From: Entomobacter blattae
Lineage (GTDB): Bacteria > Pseudomonadota > Alphaproteobacteria > Acetobacterales > Acetobacteraceae
Reading direction: 5' to 3'
Assembly (NCBI RefSeq): GCF_014672835.1
Contig: NZ_CP060244.1
Coordinates: 1,281,001-1,345,000 of the forward strand
Length of the DNA stretch: 64,000 nt
Below, one piece after another: positions 240 through 8,043 of the stretch. A program made the position numbers and the translations under genes. Each line of letters starts with the position of its first letter. Position 1 is the stretch's first letter. The notes beneath the pieces are model-generated. The model ran no database searches. It saw only the letters and a list, made by a program, of their open reading frames with translations, and had not been told where the DNA came from.

Positions 240-2642
240 GTGGCAAGTGAAGAGCTGGTTGACCCCACAGGGGAGGAGTCTCATCCATTTCGTCGTTTTA
301 TGATTCAGATTGCGATTCCGATTATTGGGGTTATTTTGGTTGTTTTGGTGATTGTTGGTGTAAGCCTTCATTCCTATAACTCCACACGGGAAGGGGTGCT
401 GAGGCTTTCGCACACCATTCTTCTCAACCAGCAACAGCGGGTTTCAAAAGAAGTAGCCGACTTTCTAGAGCCCGCCTCAACAGCAGCTTTCATCCTTGAT
501 GATATGATCCACCACAGCCCCATCCGCTATGAAAGGGGCCTGTTCGAGATCTATACCACAAGCCTCTTGCGGAAAATCCCCCAATTTCAGTCCTTCTATC
601 TGGCTGATGAGGATGGCAACTTTGCCATGGTTGAACATATGAGTGAGGGACGCTTGCGTCGCACGCTTCTGCAAAGAGACCCCACCACCCATAAAATGGT
701 CTTCTACCGCCGGATCTATAATCAGGATGGTGTGCTGATCGGCCAAAGCTCCGACCCCAGCAACGGATATGACCCCCGCACACGGCCATGGTATAAAAAT
801 GCCGGCAAGGATGGCATGATCCAATGGTATAAGCCGTATTACCTCAGTTACTTGCACGAGGTGCTGATCGCCTCTGCGGCCTCTTTTCAGGGGGCTGATG
901 GCAAGAAAAAAGTCTTCTCAGTGAACATCACCTTAAGCCAGCTGACCACATTTTTGTCTTCCCTACGTTTTGGTACCCATGGGGATGCCGCCATTATTGA
1001 CAAGGATGGCCACTTTATTGCCGGTAGGCGCCTTTTGGAAGTAGCTCACCAAAAGCAGAAATCCAATGCTGAGTGGGACCCCACCGATACGGTGGTCGAT
1101 AGCCAGCATACCCCGGTGTTAATGCGCGCTTATGATGACTTTCGTGTCAATAGTTATGGGGTCCGTGAGATTCAAAAGGATAATAAGCGTTATATCATGA
1201 TTGCAGCAGCCCTTCCCTCTGATACCCAGGGGTGGATTTTGCTGGTGGTGGTACCTGAAAATGACTTCTCTGACTTTACAGCGTCCGATGGAAAGCAGAA
1301 TTTTCTGTTTTCTCTGGTCATTGTAGGCCTGGCCATTGTCTTGGCAGGCTTGCTTATCCGCCAGGGAAGGCGAACAGAAAAAGCCCGTAAGGATTTTCGC
1401 ACCCAACAATATATCAACCAACAGCAGGGCCAAATTATCGGAGATTTCGCAAGAGACCCAACCTTGCTCAACCCACAAGAAGAAGCTCTTAAACTCACAG
1501 AAGAATTGGCGAGCCTTTCGCATAGCAAGCGCGTGGGTTTATGGCGCTTATTGCGAGATGGCAGCACGTTATTATGCGATGATTTTTACGATGTCCAAGG
1601 CGATACCCACACCGGTGGCTTTGAAATTGCCAATGCGGAAATGTCAGCTTTCTTCAGCCTTATTCAAGAAGGGGGGACAGTGCATATTGAGGATGCGAGC
1701 AGAGATGATCGGGTGCTGCCTTATTACCGGCAATATATGAGCAAGTTCGGCTCTACCTCGCTTGATATTTTTATTGTCCAGGGTGAGGGCTCTGCCTCAG
1801 CTGGGGCGATTGTCCTAGAGGATGCCGAAATTATCCGCAATGTGGCCAATACTGTTGAGCTGGTCGGGGCGATTGTAGCCTTGCGCTTTGCCGTCGCTAA
1901 CCGGGAGATGATAGGCTATACCCGCAAAGTAGCCTCTCAAAGCCAGCCCGTTATACTGGCCCAAAAAGAGCAAAACCTTATTGGCGAGCAGGGGGTTAAT
2001 GGGCAGATGTTTCCTTTGGCCCTGCAGAAGCCTCACCAAGCGGGTTCATCCCAATCTGTGCCTGAGGGGGAGGGTGCTGAACTGGCCAACCAGGGGTTCT
2101 TCCCCTATGTTGCGGTTATGATGCTCAGCTTTTTGGAATTAAACCAAGTTTCTGCCCATAGTGCTGACACTATTGTTGAAACGGTTAAAACCATGAGCCT
2201 GCAGCTTGAAGAGGTGGCTCAGAAATATAACCTTCGGTATATACAGGTGGTTGGCAACCGTATTCTGGCTGCAACGGGGTTTGTCCCTGAAGGGGATTCC
2301 ACAGCCATTATTCGCTTGGCCAATGCAGCTTTGGATATCCGTGATCTTTGTGCAGCCCTGCTGGGCCAGCTCGATATTGACCCTCTCTTTAAAATAGGCA
2401 TGGATATTGGGCCCGCTTATGCAGGCCATTTGGGTCAGGCAGGGCAGGTGTTTAACATATGGGGTGGGGTGGTTAAAGTGGCAGAGCTTATGGCCTTTGA
2501 TGCCCCCGATATTGGCACCATTCAGGTGACGGAAGTGGTTTATGAGAACTTGCGTCATCGGTTCCTGTTCAGGCCTAGAAGCACGTTTTTTGTGCCTGGC
2601 AGTGGCTTGGTGCAAACCTATGTTCTGGCGGGGTTGCGTTAA
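240..2642 (+). CDS. Membrane sensor with dCache, GAF and degenerate nucleotidyl-cyclase domain
   Basis: An 800-residue inner-membrane protein, first gene of the lipid-transport operon. A membrane helix at about 21-44 is followed by a periplasmic region of about 300 residues resembling a double Cache sensor, a second helix at about 355-375, a GAF-like domain at about 400-560, and a C-terminal domain from about 620 with the fold signature of class III cyclases (GPAYAGHLG and IQVTEVVYENL match the usual pattern). The metal-binding aspartates are absent: the usual FADI-type segment reads MLSF, and GDAxxA reads GNRILAA. In the WGDxVNxAxR motif D, N and R are replaced (WGGVVKVAELM). I infer no cyclase activity and a regulatory or binding role. 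The GTG start follows an AAAGAGGAAA ribosome-binding site. Confidence 0.85.
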   Translation: MASEELVDPTGEESHPFRRFMIQIAIPIIGVILVVLVIVGVSLHSYNSTREGVLRLSHTILLNQQQRVSKEVADFLEPASTAAFILDDMIHHSPIRYERGLFEIYTTSLLRKIPQFQSFYLADEDGNFAMVEHMSEGRLRRTLLQRDPTTHKMVFYRRIYNQDGVLIGQSSDPSNGYDPRTRPWYKNAGKDGMIQWYKPYYLSYLHEVLIASAASFQGADGKKKVFSVNITLSQLTTFLSSLRFGTHGDAAIIDKDGHFIAGRRLLEVAHQKQKSNAEWDPTDTVVDSQHTPVLMRAYDDFRVNSYGVREIQKDNKRYIMIAAALPSDTQGWILLVVVPENDFSDFTASDGKQNFLFSLVIVGLAIVLAGLLIRQGRRTEKARKDFRTQQYINQQQGQIIGDFARDPTLLNPQEEALKLTEELASLSHSKRVGLWRLLRDGSTLLCDDFYDVQGDTHTGGFEIANAEMSAFFSLIQEGGTVHIEDASRDDRVLPYYRQYMSKFGSTSLDIFIVQGEGSASAGAIVLEDAEIIRNVANTVELVGAIVALRFAVANREMIGYTRKVASQSQPVILAQKEQNLIGEQGVNGQMFPLALQKPHQAGSSQSVPEGEGAELANQGFFPYVAVMMLSFLELNQVSAHSADTIVETVKTMSLQLEEVAQKYNLRYIQVVGNRILAATGFVPEGDSTAIIRLANAALDIRDLCAALLGQLDIDPLFKIGMDIGPAYAGHLGQAGQVFNIWGGVVKVAELMAFDAPDIGTIQVTEVVYENLRHRFLFRPRSTFFVPGSGLVQTYVLAGLR

Positions 2643-2643
2643 C

Positions 2644-3642
2644 ATGATAGGTTGGGCCCCAAAAAAGATGTGGATTGTGCCAGGTCCTATGCCAAGCCCT
2701 ATGCCAGATCCCTTTATACTGGGCTTCCCAAGGGCTACCTCATGGATTTTAAGCCCTATAGTGGGCGGGTTATGGGGTCGTGAGCAGTGCAACTGTGACC
2801 AGTACAGCAGTGATCAGCGCAGAAGAAGTGACCAGTGGGGCAGCGACCAACACAGTAAGGGGAGTGCTCTTAACCAAGCTCGCTTAGCGAGCAGAGGAGT
2901 TGCGGAAAGCAACCGTGACGAATGTTCTCAATATTCTCGTGGCCATAAAGGGGAGAGAGAAGACTGCCAGCTTCAAGACCCCTCCCAAGACCTCCCTAAA
3001 AAGATAGGCTCCAAAAACACAGGCCCCAAAAAAACACGTCATGAAAAAATGGGCCATGAGAAAACACGCCCTGAGAAAACGGGCCATAAAAAAATGCGCT
3101 ATGAAAAAGAGGCCCATGAAAAAACACGCCAGAATAAGGCCTGGAACAGGGGGCAAAAGTGGGTTTGTTGTTTTCTTGGCAGGATCCTTCTTGTGCGCTG
3201 GGTCCCTCTTGTGGGTATGGTCTCTCTTGTAGGGAATGAAAGTCAAGGAAAGCTTAACCTTTATAAGGGGTTTGAGAACGCAAGGGAAGTTGAAAACGCA
3301 GGAGAAAAGAGAGGCGAGTGTAAAAATAAAAACAAGAATAAGAATAAAAATAAAACCCAGCTTACCCCATGGCCTGTCTTCTTCCCTTCTCTTTTAATTC
3401 AGGGGCGAAAGATTTTGGGGGCACAGGGCAATCCTGCTTTGGTGAGAAGGCATTATTTTACGGTATCTTTTTTATCTTCTTTTTGGTCTTTATCTTTTTC
3501 CTGGGTCTTACCTTCTTTTGGGGGGGGTGCTGTAAGGTCTTTTTATCAAAGGGTTTATTTTAATCAGGGGGTTTATGAGTGGGTTTATGAGTCTGGCCTT
3601 TCAGCTCTTAAAGCGGGTAAAGGAGTTTTCTCATGCGCCTAA
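2644..3642 (+). CDS. Candidate translated low-complexity spacer ORF between sensor and permease
   Basis: An open frame of 332 codons fills the whole gap. Its ATG lies one base after the upstream TAA, and its stop overlaps the permease start by 10 bases. The product is low complexity, with a run of 5-residue repeats of the type HEKTx, and matches no family I recognise. The frame stays open for about 1 kb although the DNA is repetitive and looks like other non-coding spacers here. It may be a real fast-evolving protein, or a spacer kept open so ribosomes reach the permease. I favour the second reading; annotators may call nothing here. Confidence 0.3.
   Translation: MIGWAPKKMWIVPGPMPSPMPDPFILGFPRATSWILSPIVGGLWGREQCNCDQYSSDQRRRSDQWGSDQHSKGSALNQARLASRGVAESNRDECSQYSRGHKGEREDCQLQDPSQDLPKKIGSKNTGPKKTRHEKMGHEKTRPEKTGHKKMRYEKEAHEKTRQNKAWNRGQKWVCCFLGRILLVRWVPLVGMVSLVGNESQGKLNLYKGFENAREVENAGEKRGECKNKNKNKNKNKTQLTPWPVFFPSLLIQGRKILGAQGNPALVRRHYFTVSFLSSFWSLSFSWVLPSFGGGAVRSFYQRVYFNQGVYEWVYESGLSALKAGKGVFSCA
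3010..3129. repeat. 15-bp tandem repeat, about 8 diverged units
   Basis: Units of the form catgaaaaaatgggc recur every 15 bp. Because 15 is a multiple of 3 the array keeps the overlapping 332-codon frame open and reads as 5-residue repeats. Confidence 0.8.
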
Positions 3643-4469
3643 GCTGGGCAGGGTTGTGGTCTTCACGCTGGTTTATTACGTTTTTTCGCTGGTTGGGCTT
3701 TATTGGCCGGGTAACGCGTACGCATGTTCGTTTTTTTCTGGTGCTGGTGGGAACCGCTTGGGGTGTGCTACGCGAAAGTGTGAACCCTTTATCGTGGCGG
3801 CGTACGGTGGTTTATGAGTTTCGGCGCACTTTATCGCAGGCGGTTGGTGGGGGGGTCATGAGCACCCTCTTTACGGCCACCCTGACCGGAATAGCCATTA
3901 TCTCCCAAACCATTTATTGGCTTGGGGTGGCTGGCATGGACCAGATGACAGGCTCGATCCTGGCTACGATCCTTCTGCGTGAGGTTGCCCCCATTTTGGT
4001 GGGAATCATCATGCTGGGCCGAAGCGGCATGCTGGCCGTAGCAGAATGTGGACAGCTAACGCGCACAGGCACAATCCGGCTTTTGGAATCCCAAGGGGTA
4101 GACCCCTTTACGTTTTTTGTTATGTCGCGGGCATTTTCCTTTACCATCAGTAGCTTTACCTTAGGGATTTTGTTTAGTTTTACAGCACTTTTTGTGGGTT
4201 ATATCATTAGCTATTCGGTAGGGACAACATCCAGCTCGGTGTGGTTTTTCTTCAATACTGTCCTTTTATCCATGACAGCGTGGGACTACATTCTTGTGCC
4301 GTTAAAATTTGTGACCATTGGTTTTTTCATTGGCCTTGGCTCCACATTAACCGGGCTGCTCATTCAAAGTAACGAGAGCGTTTCTTCCCTTTTGCCAAGA
4401 GCCTTTGCCAGGGGTATTCTCATGGTTATGTTTATAACGGTGCTGTTTAGCATCAATATTAATTTTTAG
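3633..4469 (+). CDS. MlaE-family lipid ABC transporter permease
   Basis: A 278-residue integral membrane protein of the MlaE/YrbE permease family, the membrane subunit of MCE-type systems that move phospholipid or other hydrophobic molecules between the membranes. The family core is visible: the segment with LREVAPILVGIIMLGRSG at about residues 125-145 is the characteristic coupling region, followed by several hydrophobic helices to the C-terminus. AAAGGAG lies 8 bases upstream of the ATG. It is followed after 21 bases by the ATPase-like gene and then the MCE gene, so permease, ATPase and substrate-binding subunits are adjacent. The substrate cannot be read from sequence. Confidence 0.9.
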   Translation: MRLSWAGLWSSRWFITFFRWLGFIGRVTRTHVRFFLVLVGTAWGVLRESVNPLSWRRTVVYEFRRTLSQAVGGGVMSTLFTATLTGIAIISQTIYWLGVAGMDQMTGSILATILLREVAPILVGIIMLGRSGMLAVAECGQLTRTGTIRLLESQGVDPFTFFVMSRAFSFTISSFTLGILFSFTALFVGYIISYSVGTTSSSVWFFFNTVLLSMTAWDYILVPLKFVTIGFFIGLGSTLTGLLIQSNESVSSLLPRAFARGILMVMFITVLFSININF

Positions 4470-4490: not shown

Positions 4491-5195
4491 ATGAGCGGTA
4501 TTGAACCCCTACTGGAAATGCAAGATGTTCTGCCCTATTTTGAGCAGACCGTCTTACCCCCCGCAATTTATAATTTTAGGGTTTTTGCTGGCCAGTTTAT
4601 TCTTATAGAATGCCGCAATGCTTTTAGAGGGAATGCTTTTGCGGATATGTGCCTGGGTATGGTGGGTTTAAAGACGGGGAGCATTCGGTTTATGGGGTTG
4701 GATTGGGCCAAGCTCCAGCTCCAGCAAAAAAATGCCTTGCGTGGCCGTGTTGGCCGCTATCCCCATATTCAAGGGAACTGGATGAACCTTCTGGGCACCC
4801 ATTTTAACATTATGTTTCAGCAGCTTCATCACACCAAGCGTGAGACAGAAGAAATTGTTCATGAGGCCACAGCCCTCTCACGGCGCTTTGGCTTGCCGGG
4901 CCTTCCCGTTGAAGCCCCAGAAATGTTAAGCGACGTTGATAGGGCTCGTGCAGCCTGTGTCAGGGCGTTTATGGGAAGCCCCTCTCTTGTTCTGTTGGAA
5001 TATTGCCTAGAAGATTATTTGCCGGAATTAAAAGACCCCTTGTTTCGTACCATTAACAATATGCAAAGCACAGGGACGGCGGTGATCAGCTTTACCAGGG
5101 ATCGGTTTTTATGGAAGGATTATAACCGCGAGATATCGGGCTTCTACCGCTTACGGACGGAAGGGCTGGTCGTGTCGAGAGGAGGGATACAGTAA
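4491..5195 (+). CDS. Degenerate ABC ATPase-like subunit of the MCE system
   Basis: A 234-residue protein in the place of MlaF. The layout is that of an ABC nucleotide-binding domain, but each catalytic motif is broken. The P-loop position reads IECRNAFRGNAF, with no GxxGxGKS/T and no lysine. The signature reads LSDVDRARAACVRAF instead of LSGGQ. The Walker B equivalent is LVLLEYCLED, lacking the consecutive Asp-Glu. The H-loop region reads ISFTRDRF with no histidine. The stop TAA shares its last base with the ATG of the MCE gene, indicating translational coupling. I infer a non-hydrolysing scaffold or a partner for an ATPase encoded elsewhere. Confidence 0.75.
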   Translation: MSGIEPLLEMQDVLPYFEQTVLPPAIYNFRVFAGQFILIECRNAFRGNAFADMCLGMVGLKTGSIRFMGLDWAKLQLQQKNALRGRVGRYPHIQGNWMNLLGTHFNIMFQQLHHTKRETEEIVHEATALSRRFGLPGLPVEAPEMLSDVDRARAACVRAFMGSPSLVLLEYCLEDYLPELKDPLFRTINNMQSTGTAVISFTRDRFLWKDYNREISGFYRLRTEGLVVSRGGIQ

Positions 5196-6196
5196 TGTTT
5201 TTATTTAGGCGAACCGATAATGCCCGCCAGCTTGTCCATATTCGCTATACGGATGAATGGGTCGGCGTGCTGGTTTTGATCTGTTTAATTGCCTGTGGGG
5301 CGGCCGTGGTGGAAGCGGGTTTTTTAAGGGATTGGTTAACCCCTTCTGCCAGCTTGCGCATCTTGCTGCCAGAAACAGGGGTGGCTAACCTCAGTGTGGG
5401 CGATGATGTGGAGGTGTTTGGTATTCATGCCGGTACCATCCGCAAGGTTTCGGTTAACCCTTCTGGTGGGCTCTATGCTGTCGCCGAAATAGACCCCCAG
5501 GTGACGATTTATATTCGCCAAGATAGTCAGGCTGTTATTCGCCGGCGTTTTGCCGTGGCAGGGGCCACTTATATTGCCATTAGCCGTGGCTTTGGCCAGG
5601 AGTTTGACTGGCACTACGCCGTTATTAAAGCCAACACCGAGCCCAACCCGATGGATACCATAACCCAGATGTTGCTTCAGGTTCACCAAAAGATCCTGCC
5701 TATTCTCGATAGTGCCCAGCAGCTGGTAGATAACCTTGATAACGTAACCGGCAATCTGCGGACGGGTAAGGGCACTATTGGCCGCCTGCTCAGCAATGAT
5801 GACCTAGCGCGCAAGACAGAAAAAATGGTCACCGCGCTGAATGCTGTGGTCAACAACCTTCAACCACTGGAAGGCAAAGCCGGTGCCGTGTTGGGCAGTG
5901 CACACCAGGTGATGGGCAATACCAACAAAATCCTTACCCATACCGATGTGATCTTGGCGAATTTGCGCCGTATCTCGCATGATTTGGAGCAGGCTTCTCC
6001 GCGGCTGCCTCGATTGGTGAAAAACCTTGATGAAAGCACCAGCAACCTGCCTGCCTTGCTGACCCAAACTCAGTTGATGGTTGACCAGCTTGAAAAGCTC
6101 ACCCGCCAGCTTCGAGGATTGTGGTATTTGGGGGGAGCGAATACCAAGCCGCGCTCTCAAACAGACCGCCTGCCTGCCCATGAGGTTAACCCATGA
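5195..6196 (+). CDS. MCE (MlaD-like) substrate-binding protein
   Basis: A 333-residue protein with one N-terminal membrane helix at about 22-42, an MCE domain at about 50-130 (GxxVxxxGxxxGxV-like stretch DDVEVFGIHAGTIRKV), and a long helical C-terminal region rich in heptad-like Leu/Val and Asn residues. That arrangement matches periplasmic MCE proteins that bind or channel lipids between inner-membrane permease and outer-membrane partners. It starts inside the stop codon of the ATPase-like gene and overlaps the next gene by an ATGA, so the four genes are probably co-translated. Confidence 0.88.
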   Translation: MFLFRRTDNARQLVHIRYTDEWVGVLVLICLIACGAAVVEAGFLRDWLTPSASLRILLPETGVANLSVGDDVEVFGIHAGTIRKVSVNPSGGLYAVAEIDPQVTIYIRQDSQAVIRRRFAVAGATYIAISRGFGQEFDWHYAVIKANTEPNPMDTITQMLLQVHQKILPILDSAQQLVDNLDNVTGNLRTGKGTIGRLLSNDDLARKTEKMVTALNAVVNNLQPLEGKAGAVLGSAHQVMGNTNKILTHTDVILANLRRISHDLEQASPRLPRLVKNLDESTSNLPALLTQTQLMVDQLEKLTRQLRGLWYLGGANTKPRSQTDRLPAHEVNP

Positions 6197-8043
6197 GAGA
6201 GATGTTTAAAATTCTGTTTCCTCTCAAGGCCCTCCGTATAGTGTGGCCCGGCATTGTTCCCACTTGGCTCTTACCCCACAGCAAACCAGAAGGACACTTT
6301 TGGGGTCTTGGCCCAAAAATGGGGCCAGGGCCAGGTTTACGGTCTATCCCTGATCCAAGCTTGCAGCTTAACTCCAGCGCAAGTTTGATAGGAAGGCCAA
6401 GGGTTGGCAGAGATTTTGCTGTAGATTATGGCTTAAACCCACAGCCAGGGTGGGAGGGGAATGATCAGGAGAGGTTGAAAGAAAAGGCTGGGACGCAAAA
6501 ATCTACTCTACAACCCAACAAGAGAACAGACCCAAGGGGAAGGCTAAGCTCAAAAACAAGACTAAGCTTAAGAATGCCACCAAGAATACCCCCGAGAATA
6601 TCTCTGAAAATATCCTCAAGACTAACTCCAGAGGGAAGAGCGGACATATTAGAGAGAGGAACAGAAATAAAAAAAACACTTCTCGGCGCCTTTTCAGGCC
6701 GAGGAGCGATTCTTGTCTCCTTGCAGGAAAGGACACAAGGGCTCCATCAGGGCGTATCCTCTCCAACACCCCTAATGACACACCCAATCACAGTGCCAAT
6801 CTTATCGAGGAGCGATTCTTGTCTCCTTGCAGGAAAGAAAACAAGGGCCCCATCAGAGCGTATTCCCTCTAACACCTCCCATGACATCCTCAATTACAGC
6901 GCTCCAATCACAGCCCCAATGACATATGCTGTAACACAGGCAGTAACACATGCCGTAACATACTTAGGAGCACACCCAGTACCACCTCCTGGAGGAGAGC
7001 CCAGAGAACGAGAGCCTAGAGCACGAGAGCGAGAGGTCAGAGCACAGCAGGCAACCTTGGGAAGGCAAGCAGGTTGGAGGTGGTCAGCATCTTTGGTGGG
7101 TCTTCTATTCTTGGGGTTGGCCGGGGGTGTGGCAGGCTGTGGGAGCGTTGAAGAGGAAGATCCCTACGATCAAAATCTTTATCTTACCATGCGCGCGGGG
7201 GATCAGTCAGCCAGCTTGCAGCGTTATAGCCAGGCAGAACAGCAATATCAGAAAGCCTATTTTGCGGCTGTGGCCAGAAATGATCATGAAGCCATAGAGA
7301 ATGCCGCCTATAATCTGGCATTAACCCAGTTGGCCCAAAGCCAGGCGCAAGCAGCCCTCAAACAGGTTACCCTAGCCCGGCAGGCTTTGTTGGTGCGGGG
7401 GGTTAAAACGGCTTCTGCTCTTGATCTGGTGGCCGCTGCTGCCCAGTTTAGGCTAGACCATTATAGCCAGGCTGCCCTTTTGGCCGAGAGGGCCATGCAG
7501 TCTTCTCAGAGTGATATTGCCGAGCGGGCCGCCTTTATCAGAGGGTTAATTGCTGATGAGCAGGGGGACAACCCAACCTTACGGGCCATGCTTGGGCGTG
7601 TGGCGCCGCAAGATAAGGATGAAAGTGAGCTCAGCTTACCCCAAAGGGCTGATAAGGCCGAATTGCAAGCCCGCTTTTTTCGTAGATCTGGCCAGTTGAA
7701 CGAGGCCCAACAACAGATTACGCTGGCCAGTGGGTTTTATCGCCGTGCGGTGGATTACCGCAGTATGGCCCGTAGCTTGGCTTTTGAAGGAGATTTAACT
7801 CTTCAGCAAGGTCATACCCAACGCGCCGGAGATTTTTACCTTCAGGCGGCCCAGTCACTTCTTTTGTTGAGGGACGATCACGGGGCAGAAAAACTATGGC
7901 GTAAAATTCAGGTTCTGCCGCTTTCGGGTGCATGGAAAAGGCAGGCAGAGAAAAGTATGTCTCGTATTCGTATGGAGTTAATGGATGTTCCGGTCGATAT
8001 TATTAAAAAACGTGCAGCCCGCCAACAGGAGAACCGCTGGTAG
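6193..8043 (+). CDS. TPR-type lipoprotein with long low-complexity N-terminal extension
   Basis: The 616-codon frame starts in the ATGA overlap with the MCE gene. Residues 1 to about 290 are Pro/Arg/Thr-rich, contain repeats and match no domain. Then comes a classic lipoprotein signal (hydrophobic LVGLLFLGLAGGVAGC, cysteine near residue 316), followed by about 300 residues of TPR-like helical pairs. A lipobox so far from the start cannot act as a normal signal peptide, so the functional start may be internal; an in-frame TTG at 7057 would give a normal signal. The extension looks like a repeat expansion inserted between the original start and the signal. Its role in the operon is probably an envelope partner of the MCE system. 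Confidence 0.6.
   Translation: MREMFKILFPLKALRIVWPGIVPTWLLPHSKPEGHFWGLGPKMGPGPGLRSIPDPSLQLNSSASLIGRPRVGRDFAVDYGLNPQPGWEGNDQERLKEKAGTQKSTLQPNKRTDPRGRLSSKTRLSLRMPPRIPPRISLKISSRLTPEGRADILERGTEIKKTLLGAFSGRGAILVSLQERTQGLHQGVSSPTPLMTHPITVPILSRSDSCLLAGKKTRAPSERIPSNTSHDILNYSAPITAPMTYAVTQAVTHAVTYLGAHPVPPPGGEPREREPRAREREVRAQQATLGRQAGWRWSASLVGLLFLGLAGGVAGCGSVEEEDPYDQNLYLTMRAGDQSASLQRYSQAEQQYQKAYFAAVARNDHEAIENAAYNLALTQLAQSQAQAALKQVTLARQALLVRGVKTASALDLVAAAAQFRLDHYSQAALLAERAMQSSQSDIAERAAFIRGLIADEQGDNPTLRAMLGRVAPQDKDESELSLPQRADKAELQARFFRRSGQLNEAQQQITLASGFYRRAVDYRSMARSLAFEGDLTLQQGHTQRAGDFYLQAAQSLLLLRDDHGAEKLWRKIQVLPLSGAWKRQAEKSMSRIRMELMDVPVDIIKKRAARQQENRW
6701..6872. repeat. Direct repeat of about 65 bp, offset 106 bp
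   Basis: Copies at about 6701-6765 and 6807-6872 share gaggagcgattcttgtctcc and continue with high similarity. They lie in the stop-free extension upstream of the lipoprotein signal, showing that the extension grew at least partly by duplication. Confidence 0.8.

Follow-up and report, generated by a model that had tools for sequence, protein, structure and literature searches.

A cyclase-fold membrane sensor and an ABC subunit without catalytic motifs accompany a conserved Mla/Mce-type transport cassette in acetic acid bacteria, favouring a non-enzymatic role for both

The membrane domain of the mycobacterial class III adenylyl cyclase Rv1625c is composed of six transmembrane helices. In Rv1359/MSMEG_0545 the class III cyclase domain lacks the first Asp and is possibly catalytically inactive, and it is described without a link to a transporter (PMC3961136). 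Mycobacterial Mce systems depend on one shared ATPase, MceG, which is encoded outside the operons, and Mce1N inhibits Mce by displacing MceG (PMC10517005). Here we analyze a window of 64,000 nucleotides from Entomobacter blattae, in which a membrane sensor lacking the first Asp, like Rv1359/MSMEG_0545 but in this case beside a transporter, heads a series of genes on the same strand (Table 1). The cassette resembles the MlaFEDB phospholipid transporter in its MlaE permease, its MlaD/MCE protein and an ABC subunit with the fold of a nucleotide-binding domain (NBD), and differs from it in that the ABC subunit has no Walker A, LSGGQ or canonical Walker B in any member scanned, in the gain of the sensor and a lipoprotein, and in that no MlaB gene is seen within the cassette. 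With the Mce1/MceG/Mce1N system it shares an MlaE-like permease with MCE proteins, an operon without an active ATPase and, if the sensor is indeed its regulator, an activity set by an accessory protein; unlike Mce1, it possesses a degenerate NBD of its own and a pseudo-cyclase sensor. A full-text search of an open-access library, which covers part of the literature, returned no description of such a cassette.

Table 1. Features of the sensor and transporter genes, with positions counted from the first letter of the window
Feature	Position	Strand	Basis or remark
Pseudo-cyclase membrane sensor	240..2642	+	open frame, 800 aa, GTG start, intact
TM helix 1, aa about 20-45	297..374	+	hydropathy; helical in predicted model
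Double Cache domain, periplasmic, about aa 61-350	420..1289	+	Pfam dCache_1; 6mni/6iot among Foldseek matches
TM helix 2, aa about 353-376	1296..1367	+	hydropathy and predicted model
GAF-like domain, about aa 411-560	1470..1919	+	weak Pfam match; mixed alpha/beta fold in model
Pseudo-cyclase domain, aa 620-800	2097..2639	+	Pfam, alignments, structural superposition
Sensor-permease spacer	2643..3632	.	about 1 kb, short tandem repeats (15/30-bp units)
MlaE-family permease	3633..4469	+	PF02405, E 3.3e-31
Pseudo-ATPase, ABC nucleotide-binding-domain fold	4491..5195	+	motif scan, alignment, predicted fold
MlaD / MCE-domain protein	5195..6196	+	PF02470, E 4.4e-9
Lipoprotein, TPR-like by inspection	6193..8043	+	lipobox-like AGGVAGC by eye

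The original prediction assigned the C-terminal domain of the sensor to the class III cyclase fold, and database, alignment and structural evidence agree on this point. Guanylate_cyc (PF00211) matches residues 624-797 with an E-value of 3.6e-16, far above the cut-off, the best sequence matches are Rv1625c-type class III cyclases (E 1.1e-17), and the predicted domain superposes on the cyclase Cya (5o5k) with a Z-score of 24.9, the top value obtained (rmsd 2.6 A over 182 residues, 26% identity), which places it in the same fold as the Rv1625c-type enzymes (5o5k/4p2f). The input side differs from that of Rv1625c in consisting of a periplasmic dCache and a cytoplasmic GAF-like domain instead of the Rv1625c membrane domain. 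The dCache_1 match (aa 129-336, E 1.7e-11) lies slightly below the Pfam cut-off and the GAF match is weak (aa 413-510, E 0.052), although the GAF-like region is modelled with pLDDT mostly above 80 in a structure, predicted using 16 orthologs, of moderate overall confidence (mean pLDDT 76, pTM 0.42). The binding motif of dCache_1 amino-acid receptors has the form Y/R/W/Y ... D; Y177, R180/R182, W184 and Y200 are found in the sensor, and the putative position of the later Asp is N229, with N in 77 and D in 21 of the 101 rows of the ortholog alignment.

The catalytic sites of the window protein depart from those of the Rv1625c-type cyclases. The second metal Asp, located in a well-aligned region, is replaced by N673, and the substitution of base-specifying and transition-state residues that had been predicted is confirmed at every position: the adenine-site Lys and Asp have become Q669 and N739, and the transition-state Asn and Arg have become K746 and L750. 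Judging from the alignments, the loss of the first metal Asp partly depends on the register adopted. MAFFT places M627 at this site. The superpositions begin by pairing model residue 616 with Rv1625c 242 and with CyaC 1004 and, taking the first metal Asp to be D256 in Rv1625c and D1017 in CyaC, point to about residue 629/630 (L/S) if no gap is assumed. Profile-profile alignment with hhalign selects residue 633, setting I-x-F-S-D(633) against V-L-F-A-D; this residue is Glu in the window protein and acidic in 94 of 101 aligned rows (Asp 88, Glu 6), and may represent a displaced first metal ligand in orthologs. The predicted replacement of both metal aspartates hence stands for the second site and is register-dependent for the first, where no register yields an Asp. 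A displaced Asp, which the original prediction named as grounds for its refutation, is conceivable in orthologs, but the window protein, with Glu633 and with the second Asp and the remaining residues missing, has no Asp-Asp pair whichever register is chosen and is, by sequence, catalytically dead.

The sensor family is widespread. Using the window protein as query and a threshold of E 1e-20 or better, matches were obtained in 92 of 299 Acetobacteraceae genomes, corresponding to 35 of 102 genera and including Komagataeibacter, Gluconacetobacter, Acetobacter, Gluconobacter, Commensalibacter and other acetic acid bacteria; with the alignment as query, matches were obtained in 152 of 299 genomes of a sample of the order. 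Two full-length relatives (loci L203 and L204) come from two other alphaproteobacterial families. A divergent sensor beside MlaE also appears in a metagenome-assembled genome labelled Limnobacter (L177), which is possibly misbinned or misnamed.

The substitutions seen in the window recur throughout the ortholog alignment, whose 101 rows include the window protein and, in some cases, split frames or one gene fetched twice. In the MAFFT/HMM register the first-Asp column contains M in 63, L in 32 and A in 4 rows; the second metal site holds H in 58, N in 23 and D in only 4; the adenine-site position 739 is Asn in 97; and R is kept at the transition-state Arg site in only 4 rows. Because these losses are conserved family-wide, a chance origin is excluded. 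Recent decay of the sensor gene was considered and rejected for the family, the losses being common to orthologs and dN/dS low. An ancestor with an intact catalytic site was not found among the sampled relatives. Three deep-branching members (L180, L181 and L183) keep both the second-metal Asp and an acidic residue 633, and are possible intermediates on the way to loss of activity.

Since residue 633 is acidic in nearly all rows and four deep members have an Asp at the second site, relatives may have kept some capacity to bind metal, a point that counts against the regulated-transporter model. It bears also on the idea that the pseudo-cyclase is a ligand sensor, binding nucleotide or metal without turnover. 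The constancy of Asn739, a near-invariant FNLWG segment, the acidic 633 and the retention of D722 in 97 rows speak for such a function, as does the window pair Q669-N739, which resembles the unusual pairing of Gln with Asn in Rv0386. Position 669, however, varies freely among K, R, Q and E, the second metal site is mostly His or Asn and the transition-state positions are variable, so that a conserved nucleotide pocket is hardly discernible, and we regard this explanation as improbable. A further possibility, that the domain forms a heterodimer with an active cyclase half, was rejected for the window organism, where the sensor contributes the sole PF00211 domain of the genome.

Strong purifying selection acts on the dead cyclase domain, as the dN/dS analysis proposed with the original prediction makes clear. 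Its median dN/dS amounts to 0.086 in Gluconacetobacter, 0.113 in Komagataeibacter, 0.042 in Acetobacter and 0.027 in Gluconobacter, the lowest value of any sensor domain in three of these genera and second to GAF in Komagataeibacter.

The predicted dead ATPase is likewise borne out. The ABC subunit of the window lacks Walker A and LSGGQ and carries Glu in place of the Walker B Asp; across relatives, the Walker A pattern GxxxxGK[ST] occurs in 0 of 94 ABC subunits scanned and the Asp-to-Glu change in 94 of 95 rows of the subunit alignment. The predicted structure is nonetheless that of an NBD (pLDDT 93), with MlaF among the Foldseek matches. By its sequence, the subunit is without the motifs for usual ATP binding and hydrolysis. 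The main competing explanation is that an intact MlaF encoded elsewhere energises MlaE in trans, while the pseudo-ATPase, together with the sensor, competes or modulates. The genome encodes three MlaE genes and four MlaD matches, and each of the other two MlaE regions adjoins one intact MlaF-type ABC ATPase that could act in trans, which weighs against the regulated-transporter model; sharing of MceG and its displacement by Mce1N offer a mycobacterial precedent (PMC10517005). Against this, every locus of sufficient length pairs MlaE with the pseudo-ATPase, and the pseudo-ATPase has strongly conserved motifs of its own (ALRGRIGR, HHT, GLPGLP and RAxCVRAF). Constant pairing and conserved motifs suggest that the pseudo-ATPase is the permease's own partner, and supply in trans, though it deserves serious consideration, seems to us unlikely.

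Adjacency of an MlaE permease and an MCE protein on the same strand marks the cassette as a putative transporter of Mla/Mce type. The order sensor-MlaE-ABC-MlaD-lipoprotein is preserved in practically every locus with sufficient flanking sequence, including L203 and L204. Matches to the lipoprotein in relatives span aa 313-593 only, beginning at about position 7129, and for this reason its true start probably lies later than 6193; the 5' part (window 6193-7130) contains short tandem repeats and has no match in relatives. Sensor and pseudo-ATPase occur together in 89 of 299 genomes and are discordant in 5, counts that are not independent given the relatedness of the genomes. Three genomes, all fragmented assemblies, have the sensor without the pseudo-ATPase. 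The two that have the pseudo-ATPase without the sensor belong to one genus (G246 and G277; loci L206 and L207) and retain the rest of the cassette as MlaE-pseudoATPase-MlaD-lipoprotein; Pfam analysis of the frames upstream finds no sensor, with BrkB and a helicase in its stead. This persistence of the cassette argues that the pseudo-ATPase has a role of its own, and is evidence against the regulated-transporter model.

The two sensor-less genomes would also be expected if the sensor were a conventional receptor with its site of action elsewhere, sharing only its regulation with the transporter. The same holds for the roughly 1-kb distance from sensor to permease in the window organism, which likewise counts against regulation of the transporter by the sensor. 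The spacer DNA is absent from relatives, whose genes are adjacent or overlapping: the distance from sensor stop to MlaE stop is 1824 bp here, compared with a median of 866 and a maximum of 1236 bp in 97 relatives, figures that include at least one locus with a split permease frame (L116; minimum 434). Neither plasmids nor the remainder of the genome yielded a match to the spacer that would indicate its origin. The conservation of adjacency in two further alphaproteobacterial families and the overlap of frames in relatives, such as L106, where successive cassette frames overlap or almost touch, are at odds with an unconnected receptor, which we consider very improbable. In the window organism, where a repeat-rich spacer separates the genes, the predicted position of the sensor at the head of a putative operon thus rests on gene order and on the relatives.

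Taken together with the structural and evolutionary results, these observations agree with the original proposal that two nucleotide enzymes have become non-catalytic: by sequence, both are so throughout the family, and they are encoded side by side and co-occur across genomes. Family-wide losses, adjacency, co-occurrence and purifying selection on the cyclase domain favour a retained non-enzymatic role for both dead enzymes; signalling from the sensor to the transporter by conformation or binding, as originally suggested, could be such a role, and an obligate link between sensor and pseudo-ATPase is opposed by the two sensor-less genomes. As both proteins have stayed strongly conserved despite losing their catalytic residues, the cassette probably functions with neither of the two enzyme activities.

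We propose, with about even confidence, that the cassette encodes a conserved transporter of Mla/Mce type which contains a pseudo-ATPase and is regulated non-enzymatically by the pseudo-cyclase sensor. The sensor would be the regulatory component of a transenvelope lipid-transport cassette, perceiving ligands through its periplasmic Cache and cytoplasmic GAF-like domains. Its class III cyclase fold would no longer make cyclic nucleotide and would be retained as a conformational or binding module, and the pseudo-ATPase would have kept the ABC fold after losing the usual motifs for ATP binding and hydrolysis. The MlaE-MlaD complex could then be a gated, ATP-independent lipid conduit, or be controlled by the docking of both pseudoenzymes. 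The analysis shows the sequence losses, the predicted folds, the selection, the gene order and the co-occurrence; the physical coupling of sensor to transporter, the direction of the signal, the lipid substrate and the absence of ATP-driven transport are inferred. The most specific form of the proposal, in which a widespread class of MlaE/MCE lipid transporters operates without any ATP hydrolysis, a pseudo-NBD having replaced the ATPase, and the Cache/GAF pseudo-cyclase sensor controls the conduit through conformational changes passed directly between the two dead nucleotide enzymes, is speculative and seems to us unlikely.

If the regulated-transporter proposal is right, the acetic acid bacteria and further lineages have retained an ABC-type lipid transporter whose ATPase subunit is unable to use ATP, accompanied by a receptor with a cyclase domain incapable of second-messenger synthesis. 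Such an arrangement would bear on passive lipid movement by MCE systems and on the recruitment of pseudoenzymes as signal couplers, and the cassette is present in organisms that can be cultured, Gluconobacter and Komagataeibacter among them.

The genome of the window organism also carries, at 1445758-1446351 (G000:C1; about 5759-6334 of locus L027), part of a second sensor copy, which shows 72% identity over aa 309-424 and is broken by stop codons.
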